Source: Myxococcales bacterium (GTDB taxonomy: Bacteria > Myxococcota_A > UBA9042 > UBA3505). Taken from it: a stretch of DNA of 64,000 bases. Each line of letters starts with the position of its first letter. Position 1 is the stretch's first letter. The notes under the pieces are model-generated. The model was not told the origin of the DNA. It worked only from the letters and a program-made list of their open reading frames with translations, and ran no database searches. The DNA lies in contig PBVT01000047.1 of assembly GCA_002728755.1 (NCBI GenBank), forward strand, positions 1 to 64,000. Reading direction: 5' to 3'. Both the position numbers and the translations under genes were made by a program. Below are positions 55,705 through 62,437 of the stretch, piece by piece.

Positions 55705-56625
55705 TCAATCGAACGGTACGAATTCGGCTGTTCCATACAATTCCTGGTACGCAGCCCAGGTGGTTGGACAGACCGATACCTGACTGCACTGCTGGCATGG
55801 TTCTGGTTTCGGTCGAGACGTCTCTCTATGACTCTCCATCGACGTCTCTAAACGATGTACATCGGCTACTCGATGCCGACCGAAATTTTCAGAGACATCC
55901 GAACCTGCCTGCTCTTCGTCTCGGAGATGACATAATGGGACCGCCTCCGTGCCACTCGAAAGCCCCAGTTTCTCCGCCTCACGTATCGCCCGCCGAATCC
56001 AGGGACTCGCCTCCTCCAGTCGTACTAGCGGTGCCGTATTCCAACCTATCGGGGTCGCGACTGGACGAGAAAAATTGAACTGTACTCTAGGTGCTCCGAC
56101 ATTCGCGGCACGCCGTACAATCTGAGGTAATACCATATAATTTCGTTTCAAAACCGGGATCGTCAACATGTACGAGCACCGAGCTCTACTCAGATTTTTC
56201 AGACCGGCCACGACTTCACGAAACGCTCCAGGCGTCCCGTCGATGATGTCATGCAGCCCTGCCACATGTCCGAATAAGGAGACCTCGAAAAAATCAATAC
56301 CCGCGGCCAAGGCGGTGCGAAGATAGGCACCACGGGCCAAAGCACGCCCATTGGTCTGGACCTGAATAAACTCATAGCCGATTTCACGCGCGTGACGGAC
56401 CAAGGGTAAAAAGTCCTCTCGAAGCGTGACTTCACCACGCATGAACACTAATTCCGTACAGCCTGTCTCTCTCCCCTGCTTCATCTCGGCGAGAGCATCT
56501 CGTGCGCTCTTCTCACCGTGATGCGCAATATCGGCGATCGTGCAATGGGCGCATGCGCTATTACAGGTGGTTGTGAGTCGCAGCATCAAGCGCCCACCAG
56601 TGCTCTGGGCATTCTCAAGCGCCAT
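55705..56625 (-). CDS. Radical SAM enzyme (306 aa)
   Basis: A radical SAM protein with the cluster motif CNSACAHC (Cys21, 25, 28). A GGE-like SAM site (FMRGEVTLREDFLPLVRHAR) and QTNGRALA follow, as in peptide- and small-molecule-modifying members. Near the C-terminus CQQCSQVSVCPTTW gives three cysteines for a possible auxiliary cluster. The middle has LTIPVLKRNYMVLPQIVRRA. ATG 56625 has a strong GGAGG site lying in the end of the upstream fusion gene; the two overlap by 11 bases and are co-translated. The substrate is unknown. It is the last gene of the cluster. Confidence 0.9.
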   Translation of the reverse strand: MALENAQSTGGRLMLRLTTTCNSACAHCTIADIAHHGEKSARDALAEMKQGRETGCTELVFMRGEVTLREDFLPLVRHAREIGYEFIQVQTNGRALARGAYLRTALAAGIDFFEVSLFGHVAGLHDIIDGTPGAFREVVAGLKNLSRARCSYMLTIPVLKRNYMVLPQIVRRAANVGAPRVQFNFSRPVATPIGWNTAPLVRLEEASPWIRRAIREAEKLGLSSGTEAVPLCHLRDEEQAGSDVSENFGRHRVADVHRLETSMESHRETSRPKPEPCQQCSQVSVCPTTWAAYQELYGTAEFVPFD

Positions 56626-59600
56626 CCCCAGCCTCCTCGCGCCGACGCTCCGCTGCGATCTGGGCCGATAGCTCTCTTCGATCTACCAGATAATCTTCAA
56701 TCGCCAGATAATCTGCCCCCAACTGCAGGAAGGAGCTTATGGCATCTTCCGGACTCTCTACTATGGGCTCAAATGCCGTGTTGAACGACGTGTTGACCAC
56801 CATCGGGACCTTCGTCAGGGCCTCAAAATGTTCAATCATTCGGTAATAGCGGGGATTGACTTCCTTTTCGACAGACTGGGGTCGACTTGTGCCATCACTA
56901 TGCACCACTACCGGTATCTCTTCCTGCTTGTCCGAACGAACGGGAAGGGTAAACAACATGAACGGTGTCGTGAAAGGAGTCTCAAAATAGTCCGCTTCAC
57001 GGCCGGAAAGAATGGAAGGTCCTAGAGGTCTCCACCACTGGCGACGCTTAATAAGGTTCAGTCGATCTTTGAGTTCTCGTCGCCGAGGATCCGCTAATAT
57101 ACTTCTCGCCCCGAGAGCCCTTGGTCCAAATTCCATGCGTCCCTGGAACCAGCAGACCACCTTGCCATTCGCCAATAGCTCGGCTACCTCGCTTTCAAGA
57201 TCCGAACTCTTTCGCGCCTTGAGTCCGAACCGTTCCAACGTCTCGGATACCTGCTCATTGGTATATGACGGCCCCCAATAGGCATGATTCATATGCGTAC
57301 GAGGCATCTCTCCGGTGATCACTCGATGCGCCTCAAGGGCCGCTCCCAGTGCTGTGCCAGCGTCATGGGCCGCTGGTTGTACGTAGATCTCGTCTAATCC
57401 GAAATGAAGTCGTATCCGCTGATTCAAACTGCAGTTCAGGGCGACACCGCCGGCCAAACACATCGTGCGTGGCTTTCGCCCTTTCAACCCCCCTTCAATC
57501 AACGAGATAACCGTCTCTTCGAGGGCATCCTGTGTGCTTGCGGCGAGGGAAATATGCTCGTCGAGAAGAGGACCATCCCGGTGACGAGATAAATGGCCGA
57601 AAGCCTTATCCACGCCTTGCCAATGAATATTGTAGTCCTCGTGATCTCGAGCAGAGAGATAGGGCTTCATGTCCATGGAACCATCTCCCAGAGAGGCGAG
57701 TCCCATCGTGGAGCCCTGACCATAGTGACCGAAGCCGAGGATCAGAGTCACGGTCTCATATACACCACCAATCGTTGTGTCTCGTTGGGCCAGAATATCA
57801 AACGTTCGAACAAGACCGTCCTCGGTCGGTTCAAAGAACGCAGCCGTCTCTCGTTCACCTCGACCATCAACAGTGAAGACATAGGCATCTTCCAATCCAC
57901 TCACATGATACGCCGAAGCCGCATGCGCCAGATGGTGAGGAATGTAAATGAAGCGCCCTGACTGAACCGTCTTCGGGGGTTTCCGTGGATCATTCAAGGA
58001 ATAGGTCTCGATAAAACGACCGGGCACCCCATTCACAGCGATGTGGTCCACATCCTCAAGTTTGATACCCGCTTCCTCTAGAACATATCCGATGGATTCC
58101 CAGGGAAATGGCAGTTCAATTGGCAGGGTTGGATCCGAGACGACCGTCTCTCCTCGACGACCTGGAGGGGCCCAACCATATTGCTTCTTACGACGAAACC
58201 GCTCCTCCTGCACCGCAGCAATGAGCTCCCCATCACGAAGGAGAACAGCACCATGGTGCTGCTGTGTGGTCATAGCTACGCCGAGAATAATAGGTTTCGT
58301 ATTGGCTTCCCGAGGGTTCTGCCATGCCGGAGGGCGGGTCTCATTTGCGACGTCCTTTACCTCACGGCCGAGCATGGCCAACCAATCCAAACCTTTCGAC
58401 GCGATAACCTCAGGTTCCCAGGCCTGATCGAGAAAACCGGCCGGAGACAAGGCCATCTCCGGGCAGTGCTCAACACAGGCATAACAGCGAATACAACGTG
58501 CATCATCGATGATGGGAACCGGTCGGTCTGCAATCTCGTCACGCTGTTCAATAGTAATGCAATGCGTTGGGCAAACCCCCATACAACTCGCATGTCCATT
58601 GCACCGGTCCGGTTCCAAAGCAATCTTCTTGGAGCTGCTCGGCAATGGTTCCGAGGCCCGCACGGGTGTAGGACGTCGATGAACAGCTCGGGCTAGACCA
58701 AGAAGCCGAATACTCTCTACTTCTGATCCCACCACATCATTGTCTGCAGCACTCTGCAGGGCCGGCATCGTCTCCATGGAAGCGCCGGTGACCTCGATAC
58801 CAACCCGATCGATCGCCACAGAGAACGAACTAGCCATCAGCAGGTCGTATTGCCCTCCGTCAACAATCGACAATCGAACGTCCAGAATAGAGCGAAGATC
58901 GAAGACACTGCCATCGTCGGAGCGGACCAACCAATGCTCCATTCCCATCGACTGCTCGTGGGTGCGTAATAGCCCATTGAGCCACACTGACGGGCTATCG
59001 GGTGGTACCAGGGTGATGCCTAGTCGCACCCGCTCTTGACCTGTCTCATTGAGAACGACATCCGACGTGATCCCCTGCTGTCTCGTCTCCGGTTGCCAAA
59101 GAGATCCGAATTCTCCCAAGAGGGTCTGTCGTTGCTTTTCAGGCATCAGATTCAAGTATCCTGCCGTGCAAGCGTCAGCCCCGGTCTCCATCAACCTCGT
59201 AAGAGGAAAGATCGCATCAAACCAGCCCGCATCTTTCGGGGTCAGTGTGGGATCCGATTCCTGGTTCCAGGAGATGGAGTGGAGGGTTCCGCCCGCACGC
59301 TCACAACATGCCTGTAATTCCTTGAGCTTCTCCCTGTGTTCTTCCTTGTCCGGGTCGTACGCAACCGCCAAGCCGACATAATGGCTCAAGTCCGAACAGA
59401 TACCCATTAACGCCTCAACGACTTCAAAGCGTGGCTCATCTGGACCCAAACGAAGGGTTAATAGGGTACGAAGTGTCACTTCACGTCGATGGGAACAATC
59501 GATACTTGCCCCCGATTTACGTGTCATCGTCTGCAAGCAGGCCTGACGCCAGGGAGCTACCGCAGATGCGTGTTCACCACAGACCTGAACGGGCTCTTCA

Positions 59601-60757
59601 TCGCGTAGAGAGCACGGAGTCAAAAAACCATCGGCGGATATAAACATCCAGCCACTTCCGCCTGGGCACCCTCCCGGCCCTTCTACCGGATCGAAGGAGA
59701 GGTCCGAACAATCAGGCATCTCGTCTACCCGAGAACATGTCGGCCCTTTTTCCTCAAATCCAAGGTCGTACGTCTTCGCAACCGCTTGCCAGGACGAGTC
59801 TCCCGTGGGTGCCAGTCGAATACCCGACACACCAGACTCCACCAAAAGCCTCAGCTTCTCGGCATCAGGCGGTGGGTCATTGCCCACTAGCCAGACCTCT
59901 AACCCAACCCGTTTTGCGAAGGAGATAAGGCCGGGCAGATCACGGCGCGATCCAAAGTCCGTCCCGGTGAGGACAAGACGTGGTGCGCGTAAATCACGTA
60001 GGGACTGAATAAGCTGATACCCCTGCGCCGTACTCAATTCGTTCGGGTGGCGCGCCGTGCCATCGGCATCTCGGCCCTGCGTAATCTCCCAGACGACCTC
60101 TCGGGGCGTAAAGTCCGGCACATCCAGAATAAAGCGCGATAGGCTTCCCAGACCATCGCCGACCAATTCCAACGCCCGTCGTAGTTCCTCCACACCACCA
60201 CCCGCGGACACAAGAGAAACCTCTGCAGGACGGCCTTTGCCAATTCCATCTACGGGGTGCATTCCACGCAAAGACGAATCCGACTCGGGCGAAATTAATG
60301 CTGTTCGCGGCTCTTCTACCAAACCACTGTCGGGCCGGATCTCTACCCCTACTCCCCGCTGCTCACAGACGTGTAGGGCAGCCTTCAGCCAGGGGGTGAG
60401 TTCAGCATCCGTAGGCACAGGCACACCGCCAGCCTTCCAGAAACTGATACCTGCGACTGAATCAAATCGATCATCTACAAAGCGAATAAGGTCCGGCAAT
60501 TCCCGATAGGTTGCCAACGTGATGGGGTGCTCCAAAACCACAGAGCATCCTTTCGAGAGCAGGTCTTCAATGGATGAAGCGACGGCTTCAAACTGACCAT
60601 AGGCATAGGTGGCTGCTTCAAAAAGCTCACCGACATGGGATGGGAACAATATATGAACATCGCCCTTTTGCGAGGCTGCCTGCGCAAAAAGGGCTGGCCA
60701 CGAATCCGGATCGCGAAAGTCACTAATCGTCTGTTTGGTTTCGTGTACCGTGGTCAT
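56615..60757 (-). CDS. Fusion: cluster-less radical-SAM/SPASM-like region, 2x[4Fe-4S] ferredoxin, NodU/CmcH carbamoyltransferase
   Basis: A 1380-residue protein with an unusual architecture. Near residue 221 VVWEITQGRDADGTARHPNE, then LSTAQGYQLIQSL and LVLTGTDFGSRRDLPGLISF, follows the sequence grammar of radical SAM domains but has no CxxxCxxC. A Cys set with ISADGFLTPCSLRDE (about 370-430) is SPASM-like. Residues 719-765 are a bacterial-type ferredoxin (CNGHASCMGVCPTHC and CIRCYACVEHCP). From about 825 a carbamoyltransferase of the NodU/CmcH/TobZ family has QEERFRRKKQYG, HHLAHAASAYHVSG, MEFGPRALGARSILADPR and VVNTSFN. ATG 60757 is preferred over GTG 60775. It lies between two radical SAM genes. 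Confidence 0.85.
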   Translation of the reverse strand: MTTVHETKQTISDFRDPDSWPALFAQAASQKGDVHILFPSHVGELFEAATYAYGQFEAVASSIEDLLSKGCSVVLEHPITLATYRELPDLIRFVDDRFDSVAGISFWKAGGVPVPTDAELTPWLKAALHVCEQRGVGVEIRPDSGLVEEPRTALISPESDSSLRGMHPVDGIGKGRPAEVSLVSAGGGVEELRRALELVGDGLGSLSRFILDVPDFTPREVVWEITQGRDADGTARHPNELSTAQGYQLIQSLRDLRAPRLVLTGTDFGSRRDLPGLISFAKRVGLEVWLVGNDPPPDAEKLRLLVESGVSGIRLAPTGDSSWQAVAKTYDLGFEEKGPTCSRVDEMPDCSDLSFDPVEGPGGCPGGSGWMFISADGFLTPCSLRDEEPVQVCGEHASAVAPWRQACLQTMTRKSGASIDCSHRREVTLRTLLTLRLGPDEPRFEVVEALMGICSDLSHYVGLAVAYDPDKEEHREKLKELQACCERAGGTLHSISWNQESDPTLTPKDAGWFDAIFPLTRLMETGADACTAGYLNLMPEKQRQTLLGEFGSLWQPETRQQGITSDVVLNETGQERVRLGITLVPPDSPSVWLNGLLRTHEQSMGMEHWLVRSDDGSVFDLRSILDVRLSIVDGGQYDLLMASSFSVAIDRVGIEVTGASMETMPALQSAADNDVVGSEVESIRLLGLARAVHRRPTPVRASEPLPSSSKKIALEPDRCNGHASCMGVCPTHCITIEQRDEIADRPVPIIDDARCIRCYACVEHCPEMALSPAGFLDQAWEPEVIASKGLDWLAMLGREVKDVANETRPPAWQNPREANTKPIILGVAMTTQQHHGAVLLRDGELIAAVQEERFRRKKQYGWAPPGRRGETVVSDPTLPIELPFPWESIGYVLEEAGIKLEDVDHIAVNGVPGRFIETYSLNDPRKPPKTVQSGRFIYIPHHLAHAASAYHVSGLEDAYVFTVDGRGERETAAFFEPTEDGLVRTFDILAQRDTTIGGVYETVTLILGFGHYGQGSTMGLASLGDGSMDMKPYLSARDHEDYNIHWQGVDKAFGHLSRHRDGPLLDEHISLAASTQDALEETVISLIEGGLKGRKPRTMCLAGGVALNCSLNQRIRLHFGLDEIYVQPAAHDAGTALGAALEAHRVITGEMPRTHMNHAYWGPSYTNEQVSETLERFGLKARKSSDLESEVAELLANGKVVCWFQGRMEFGPRALGARSILADPRRRELKDRLNLIKRRQWWRPLGPSILSGREADYFETPFTTPFMLFTLPVRSDKQEEIPVVVHSDGTSRPQSVEKEVNPRYYRMIEHFEALTKVPMVVNTSFNTAFEPIVESPEDAISSFLQLGADYLAIEDYLVDRRELSAQIAAERRREEAGDGA

Positions 60758-60823
60758 TGGCGTAGTCGACTCCACAGCCCACTACGAGCCATTCGTGCGA
60801 TAATCGAAAAGAACTCGTGGAGT

Positions 60824-62437
60824 TCAGGCCGTTGCACGCTGCTGGCCACGAAGTGCCGCTGCGACGGAATGCATCATACTTCGACGTGAATCCTTATCAA
60901 AGTCTTCCGGGAAATCCCAGGAGACCTCAATTCGGTCCTTTTCATTTCGGTTCAGATGCACCGACGCGCGCATACCATCGGCACTTTCCAGATAGGCGGA
61001 CGCACCGTTTGTGTCGAGATTCGGATGGGCGCCAACAACCTTCCAGCCCGGAACAGCATCATTCGACATGAGCCGTTTTAACCGTCGCTGAATGGATGGC
61101 GTCACCATTGTATCGGCCCCGAATACGGTCCGACGTTTACGAATACGATCGGAAGACACCGGCGTACGAGCCATACCTGGACACGATTGCGACAAGGCAT
61201 CGAAAAACTCTCCGGCGATTGTGTTTGCGATATGGTCTGGCACGTTCGCCGATTCAATCCGCATACAGAACTCGGTATGTTCTCCGTCACCCCCTCCCGG
61301 CATATTCGGTGGGACTAACACGACCCGGATTTCCTGGTCGTCTCCGGAACGTAACCTGCATACGACGCGGCGCATACGTTCATCTTCCTCTCGCTCCCGA
61401 AAGCTCCAACCAGAAGGTAAGGTCTCTCCGAGGGCATCAAGGTGCGGTTTGATTCGCATAACAAAGAGTCGGTAATCCGTGTCCAGCTCCCGCACCTTGG
61501 TCATCGAAACGGGTCGGAAGATATCCACGCCTCGCCGACGCGCGTAGAGATCAAAGAAGCCACTACATTGCGACTCAAAAGAGCAGGAGTTGCAGCTATC
61601 CAGCTTCAACTTATCTGTACTCTTATCCTGGTACTTGTCCCACGGATCGGACAGTTCGGAGTCTCCATCGACGGCCACTGTAAAGGTAAGATTACCTTCG
61701 TGATGGATTTTGTGCCCCCACTCGGGAACCACGCAATATGGGAGGTTCCCAATATTTACGTCGAAGTCCGGGGATATCGTATCGAAGTCCGTAAGCATGG
61801 TTCGCAGAACACGACCAAGATCTTCGTAATCCGGCATGATCCCATCGAGATAATCCTCACTCCGATCTCCCGAATCACGTGGTCGAACCATATCGAGATG
61901 GACCTGCCAGATATCATATTTTCGTACCAACTCCGGCAGATGCACCAAAGAACGGTAATTCTCTTCGACCACACACATATTCACGCTGAGTTTTTGACCC
62001 ATTCGGCTGAGCGTCTCAAGACCCGTAACGATTTTCTGGAACGCACCTTTCTTCTTGGTGGTGAAATCATGGGTCTCTTCATCGCCACCCTGAAGGCTTA
62101 TACGCCAGGCAATATTGTCGCCAAGGGCCATGACCTTACGGAGCCACTTCTCGTTCCAGAGACGAACCCCATTGGTGAATATTACGACCTCTTCAAACTC
62201 ACAGGACACGGCGTGCTCAAGGAGCTCCATAAAGCTATGGTGAATCGTAGGCTCCCCTCCTAGAAAGGTGAACTTGGGTATTCCCATCGCCTTGGCGCGA
62301 TCGATTTCCGAGCGGATCAATTCGGTATCGACCGGCTTTGCCAATCGAAGTTCAGTCATCTGGCCGCTTACACAAAAAACACAACGGTTATTGCATACAT
62401 GACCAAGCTGGATTTCAAATCTCTGATCTGGTTCCAC
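60824..62437 (-). CDS. Radical SAM enzyme with C-terminal extension (537 aa)
   Basis: A radical SAM protein with the motif CNNRCVFC (Cys15, 19, 22) and the SAM-binding FLGGEPTIHHSFMELLEHA. Other conserved-looking strings are VIFTNGVRLW, ISLQGGDEETHD and NIGNLPYCVVPEWGHKIHHE. About residue 285 CNSCSFESQC, then SGFFDLYARRRG, provides cysteines for an auxiliary cluster. From about 330 on is a charged region of unknown fold (SGWSFREREEDERMRRVVC to the end). It starts with GTG 62437, without a strong ribosome site, and is followed after 66 bases by the fusion gene. The substrate is unknown. Confidence 0.9.
   Translation of the reverse strand: MEPDQRFEIQLGHVCNNRCVFCVSGQMTELRLAKPVDTELIRSEIDRAKAMGIPKFTFLGGEPTIHHSFMELLEHAVSCEFEEVVIFTNGVRLWNEKWLRKVMALGDNIAWRISLQGGDEETHDFTTKKKGAFQKIVTGLETLSRMGQKLSVNMCVVEENYRSLVHLPELVRKYDIWQVHLDMVRPRDSGDRSEDYLDGIMPDYEDLGRVLRTMLTDFDTISPDFDVNIGNLPYCVVPEWGHKIHHEGNLTFTVAVDGDSELSDPWDKYQDKSTDKLKLDSCNSCSFESQCSGFFDLYARRRGVDIFRPVSMTKVRELDTDYRLFVMRIKPHLDALGETLPSGWSFREREEDERMRRVVCRLRSGDDQEIRVVLVPPNMPGGGDGEHTEFCMRIESANVPDHIANTIAGEFFDALSQSCPGMARTPVSSDRIRKRRTVFGADTMVTPSIQRRLKRLMSNDAVPGWKVVGAHPNLDTNGASAYLESADGMRASVHLNRNEKDRIEVSWDFPEDFDKDSRRSMMHSVAAALRGQQRATA

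Follow-up and report, generated by a model that had tools for sequence, protein, structure and literature searches.

Two radical SAM half-barrels without cluster cysteines in a ferredoxin-carbamoyltransferase fusion protein of a Myxococcales bacterium

The window analyzed here is the stretch of 64,000 nucleotides at the start of contig PBVT01000047.1 from a Myxococcales bacterium (GCA_002728755.1). The source assembly contains 133 contigs and is 93% complete with 4.7% contamination. The window encodes a fusion protein, P0001, flanked by two intact radical SAM (rSAM) genes. P0001 contains, in order, two rSAM half-barrels, a linker domain, a ferredoxin, and a carbamoyltransferase. The features are as follows.

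56615..60775, minus strand: P0001, fusion protein of 1386 amino acids with a GTG start
60320..60739, minus strand: P0001 residues 13-152, C-terminal half of an HxsC/HxsC4-like rSAM barrel (alpha3, beta4-beta7/8)
59750..60109, minus strand: P0001 residues 223-342, N-terminal half of a TIGR04053-like rSAM barrel (beta1-beta4)
60053..60079, minus strand: P0001 residues 233-241 (QGRDADGTA), what is left of the cluster loop, by alignment
59954..59965, minus strand: P0001 residues 271-274, GTDF instead of GGDP/GGEP, by alignment
59495..59686, minus strand: P0001 residues 364-427, SPASM-like remnant with C370 and C388 retained, by alignment, with low model confidence
58631..59443, minus strand: P0001 residues 445-715, region without a Pfam match
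58445..58624, minus strand: P0001 residues 718-777, two-cluster ferredoxin, by Pfam Fer4 families
56657..58300, minus strand: P0001 residues 826-1373, predicted NodU/TobZ-type O-carbamoyltransferase (PF02543 and PF16861)
60824..62437, minus strand: P0002, intact rSAM protein (CNNRCVFC, GGEP) of 537 amino acids, directly upstream of P0001
55705..56625, minus strand: P0003, intact rSAM protein (CNSACAHC) of 306 amino acids, whose start overlaps the end of P0001
62552..64000, minus strand: TonB-dependent-receptor-like gene upstream of P0002, identified by reading, about 763 amino acids in total and running past the window

Pfam matches to P0001 fall in its C-terminal half only and comprise 4Fe-4S motifs and carbamoyltransferase domains. 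The carbamoyltransferase part matches TobZ (E = 5e-81) with intact HHLAH and VDGxGE motifs. It has the Carbam_trans_N and Carbam_trans_C domains and the HHxxH motif of the NodU/TobZ family, and by these domains and motifs P0001 is a predicted member of that family. The ferredoxin scores above the cut-off of several Fer4 families. It contains the two cluster-binding cysteine motifs of a dicluster ferredoxin, CX5CX3CP and CX2CX2CX3CP. The first of these (window 58562-58606) is CX5CX3CP, not CX2CX2CX3CP, and is perhaps a 3Fe-4S type site; the Enhygromyxa protein has the same form. The end of residues 445-715 (..GL..RRPT..) resembles the conserved domain that precedes the ferredoxin in relatives (hhalign, 41%, E = 2.8e-4, 51 columns). 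The region had no match to its Nannocystaceae counterpart. In P0002, the C-terminal 210 residues (window 60824-61462) have no Pfam match, and their only detectable relative is in the Enhygromyxa P0002.

A preliminary description had placed a dead rSAM domain at about residues 192-492 of P0001, and the profile matches put one there. Residues 1-460 match TIGR04053 (E = 9.9e-9) and AhbD (E = 1.3e-6) in NCBIfam. Residues 235-322 align to the TIGR04053, AhbD, and PqqE profiles from just past the cysteine motif. An hhalign comparison with 8 canonical TIGR04053-like proteins gave 98.2% and E = 5.9e-14 at 34% identity over 103 columns. The TIGR04053 score of 34.9 bits is below the curated cut-off of 395 bits.

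The three cluster cysteines are absent, as had been described. Relatives read WE(V/I)TQ-A-C-DLACxHCRA at the cluster loop, and P0001 reads WEITQ-G-R-D followed by ADG, with 7 residues missing in between. The first cysteine is replaced by Arg235, and the second and third are lost within the gap. The SAM motifs are also altered: GGDP is GTDF, a substitution that had likewise been noticed, and SPSGTP is GNDPPP. Both CX3CX2C and GG(D/E)P are intact in 29/29 related frames (27 distinct). P0001 thus has neither of the two marks of a catalytic rSAM enzyme, the CX3CX2C motif and the GGE/GGD motif after beta2.

The remaining SPASM-like cysteines had been read as retained, which holds in part. Of the SPASM motif, P0001 keeps the opening C-x(9-15)-G-x4-C element, to which C370 and C388 correspond, but the later CX2CX5CX3C and the last cysteine are gone. 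P0001 still shares the SPASM-like GPxG..F.S.DG..P stretch with the TIGR04053 family. About 37 residues separate beta4 from the start of this stretch in P0001, compared with about 134 in relatives. Because about 100 residues (beta5-beta8) are missing after beta4, residues 223-427 are a half-barrel with a SPASM remnant and not an entire dead barrel. It is very improbable that this part is still an active rSAM enzyme that takes its cluster from elsewhere or has a degenerate cofactor-binding site. The adjoining ferredoxin and the leftover C347, C356, C370, C388, C399, C413, and C427 are consistent with such activity, but the cluster loop is deleted, both SAM motifs are changed, and beta5-beta8 are missing.

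A frameshift was ruled out as the reason for the missing cysteines, since the other reading frames contain no hidden cysteine motif. The frame is open and its codon-position GC is gene-like through the dead part. An assembly or sequencing artifact in the metagenome bin is hardly to be expected. The fragmented, slightly contaminated assembly and the lack of a second copy of the domain would allow one; against it, the P0001 frame stays open over 1386 codons, it lies on a 296-kb contig, and no other frame supplies the motif.

The region ahead of this domain has a different parentage. In related genomes, intact HxsC-like rSAM enzymes match residues 42-152 with their second half (BLASTP, E = 4e-12; also phmmer). 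Residues 38-142 align with the second barrel half of HxsC/HxsC4-like enzymes (hhalign, 95.9%, E = 5e-9). The first barrel half, with the cluster and GGE motifs, is absent, and the approximately 40 residues before the match are too few to hold it. From these sequence features, neither half should be able to bind SAM or a [4Fe-4S] cluster as rSAM enzymes usually do. The earlier view of a single dead rSAM fold is therefore correct as to the fold but not as to the number: there are two half-barrels of different parentage, and residues 13-152 had been overlooked. The HxsC-like half is also found in another family. The orthologue at locus L052 keeps this first half-barrel at 28% identity, likewise without the cluster half.

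Further HxsC-like genes occur nearby. A second cluster with three of them lies 6-10 kb past the window (L015:9893-13780; G000:C37 69893-73780). Two of the three have adjacent counterparts at locus L023. The middle gene has a C-terminal extension that ends in rSAM-like auxiliary cysteines.

The TIGR04053-like half was seen in one genome only, and its own genome holds no second copy of the domain. No relative was retrieved when contigs were scanned with just the N-terminal 492 residues. In a search for the domain across 377 genomes of the phylum, all hits apart from the L052 orthologue were canonical rSAM enzymes. No orthologue with an active domain at this place was found, which fits the preliminary description: L052 lacks the domain, and the other relatives of the domain are canonical.

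Residues 1-460 were modeled with AlphaFold2 in two runs whose alignment rows covered either the one half or the other, because joint alignments of both half-barrels misplaced rows. The half without alignment rows was still modeled as a half-barrel in each run, at lower confidence. The HxsC-like half has a pLDDT of 81-97 over most of its length. With alignment rows, the TIGR04053-like half has a pLDDT of 88-97 for residues 251-320. Both half-barrels matched halves of rSAM structures when compared with the PDB using VIA-align, and the predicted fold is thus that of an rSAM half-barrel and not an unrelated one. Residues 10-148 superpose on SkfB 180-322 (Z 12.9, 2.8 A), and the HxsC-like half also matches DesII (Z 12.9) and RlmN (Z 12.4). 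Residues 220-344 superpose on PqqE 13-163 (Z 11.2, 2.3 A, 116 aligned), a match that comes from the run in which this half had no alignment rows. Corresponding regions score lower in the alternate model (DesII, Z 8.2 for residues 13-149). Residues 150-223 and most of 344-460 are unordered, with a pLDDT below 50, and the halves are not packed together confidently (pTM 0.42-0.43).

The two halves could pair in swapped order, with beta4-beta8 ahead of beta1-beta4, and create a new binding site within a hybrid barrel. Together they provide about 8-9 strands at complementary barrel positions. We consider this pairing improbable. Whole-barrel alignments have an rmsd of 17-20 A, which means that the models do not close into a barrel. 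In addition, beta4 is present twice, and the L052 orthologue has a single half. It is equally improbable that such a swapped-order, noncatalytic barrel would carry the substrate or dock the partners in a new biosynthetic machine made of rSAM enzymes, ferredoxin, and carbamoyltransferase, with cluster loss as a recurrent evolutionary step.

A scan with the carbamoyltransferase part retrieved a distinct subfamily at 44-60% identity, after which identity falls to below 40%. Its hosts are Myxococcota (Enhygromyxa, Plesiocystis, and metagenome bins) and Elusimicrobia. L052 is the nearest member, with a carbamoyltransferase that is 60% identical, and it contains neither the TIGR04053-like part nor the ferredoxin. 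Other members have differing N-termini, usually another domain followed by the ferredoxin and the carbamoyltransferase. At the Nannocystaceae loci L056, L057, and L059, the N-terminus differs again. It has no Pfam match and by reading resembles a degenerate adenylate-forming enzyme.

The neighboring rSAM enzymes go with this subfamily. In Enhygromyxa, too, P0002 and P0003 accompany the carbamoyltransferase. At about 10 loci, the carbamoyltransferase continues at its C-terminus into a P0003-type rSAM, and 16/16 subfamily genomes checked contain an rSAM of this type. The copresence and fusions argue for a physical or pathway link, and with the gene linkage they suggest one pathway or assembly.

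Genomes with this subfamily, including Elusimicrobia, are often rich in rSAM genes and contain NifH-like paralogues as well. NifH-like genes accompany the subfamily in 7/12 genomes, against 42/377 over the phylum (p = 7e-5). Within the class, the counts are 4/6 and 28/52, so the co-occurrence is not specific there. The paralogues are found in the genome of P0001, on a different contig, and in 3/4 Elusimicrobia genomes checked. The copy in the P0001 genome (L025; G000:C23 20749-25248) has two neighbors that are NifDK-like by reading. That contig also bears three further NodU-type carbamoyltransferases.

Cluster loss was also found elsewhere in the system. CX3CX2C is gone from two P0003-type domains of carbamoyltransferase fusions, both of which keep their C-terminal cysteines.

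L062:1774-2688: P0003-type domain of an Elusimicrobia locus, with the three cysteines replaced by Asp, Pro, and Ala
L177:10517-11377 (G230:C200): P0003-type domain without the cluster cysteines, in the genome that contains the Plesiocystis locus L059 as well

These two losses are independent. An rSAM domain that lacks the cysteines but is apparently whole is encoded in the L052 genome (L017:4574-5443; G021:C699; hhalign, 94%, E = 1.4e-7). An active rSAM domain follows it in tandem, and a carbamoyltransferase and a further rSAM lie beside the pair. The repeated loss favors a use for the dead fold.

The N-terminus of P0001 is assembled from pieces of two rSAM enzymes, one HxsC-like (residues 13-152) and one TIGR04053-like (residues 223-427). 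Among several candidate roles, including the earlier suggestion of recognizing the substrate of the neighboring rSAM enzymes, scaffolding or docking is more likely, judging from the genetic linkage, the fusions, and the recurrence of cluster loss. Our tentative proposal is that the dead halves are a noncatalytic docking or substrate-presenting module of an rSAM-ferredoxin-carbamoyltransferase assembly. They may dock the active partners P0002 and P0003 or present the substrate, and the ferredoxin may donate electrons to these partners. The carbamoyltransferase may act on the same product, so that one molecule would receive both radical chemistry and carbamoylation. The homology and folds of the half-barrels, the loss of the cysteine and GGE motifs against canonical relatives, the gene-like frame, the retention in L052, the linkage and fusions of P0003, and the recurrent cluster loss point to such a module. 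The presence of the TIGR04053-like half in one genome, an L052 orthologue that does without it, the unordered linkers, and the lack of confident packing between the halves in the models speak against it. Any use is better supported for the first half-barrel, which is common to two families.

The strongest rival is that P0001 carries an evolutionary relic, in which a gene fusion left two rSAM pieces in frame as tolerated linkers under little selection. It ranks so because the TIGR04053-like half is known from one genome only. The halves have different parentage and one has a large internal deletion, the N-terminal region varies across the subfamily, and the second half is missing from the nearest orthologue, all of which a relic would account for. 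We find this origin possible but doubtful, as the first half-barrel persists between families with a high-confidence fold, the frame and codon pattern are intact, and the system contains further dead rSAM domains.

The literature seldom treats dead rSAM domains; in P0001 they belong to a defined enzyme subfamily of Myxococcota and Elusimicrobia that seems not to have been studied before. Independent, repeated loss of the cluster in one assembly would make it possible to test the idea that rSAM pseudoenzymes act as scaffolds. Two naturally paired half-barrels would also bear on the recombination of (beta/alpha)8 barrels.

P0001 resembles several known systems in part. Its residues 223-326 are similar in sequence to the TIGR04053 family (radical SAM/SPASM; relatives of the heme b synthase AhbD), but it lacks the cluster cysteines, has GTDF for GGDP, and is missing half of the barrel. 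It has only the second barrel half of HxsC/HxsC4-like enzymes. By the features tested, it belongs to neither parent rSAM family. TIGR04347 (NCBIfam pseudo_SAM_Halo) is a named pseudo-rSAM/SPASM family with a full-length profile of 390 positions, so P0001 is not the first case of a dead rSAM domain. P0001 matches it at E = 3e-4 and 20 bits, below the curated cut-off of 525 bits. We know of no carbamoyltransferase fusion in TIGR04347. The C-terminal 550 residues share both domains and the catalytic-type motifs with TobZ, NodU, and GdmN. To our knowledge, the known members of that group contain no rSAM remnants or ferredoxin. Novel nitrogenase-paralogue and multi-rSAM clusters of Elusimicrobia were reportedly described by Meheust et al. 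in 2020. These may be the wider setting of P0001, although, unlike in those clusters, the NifH-like gene of its own genome lies on a different contig. A search for papers on rSAM pseudoenzymes found no specific one in the literature covered. In diphthamide synthesis, Dph1 and Dph2 are a paralogue pair in which a noncatalyzing radical-SAM-type subunit supports the other (PMC8153317). The halves of P0001 may work in a similar way, but Dph2 retains a cluster that aids reduction. As far as our search reached, two half-barrels on a carbamoyltransferase are a new composite, though of a known kind.
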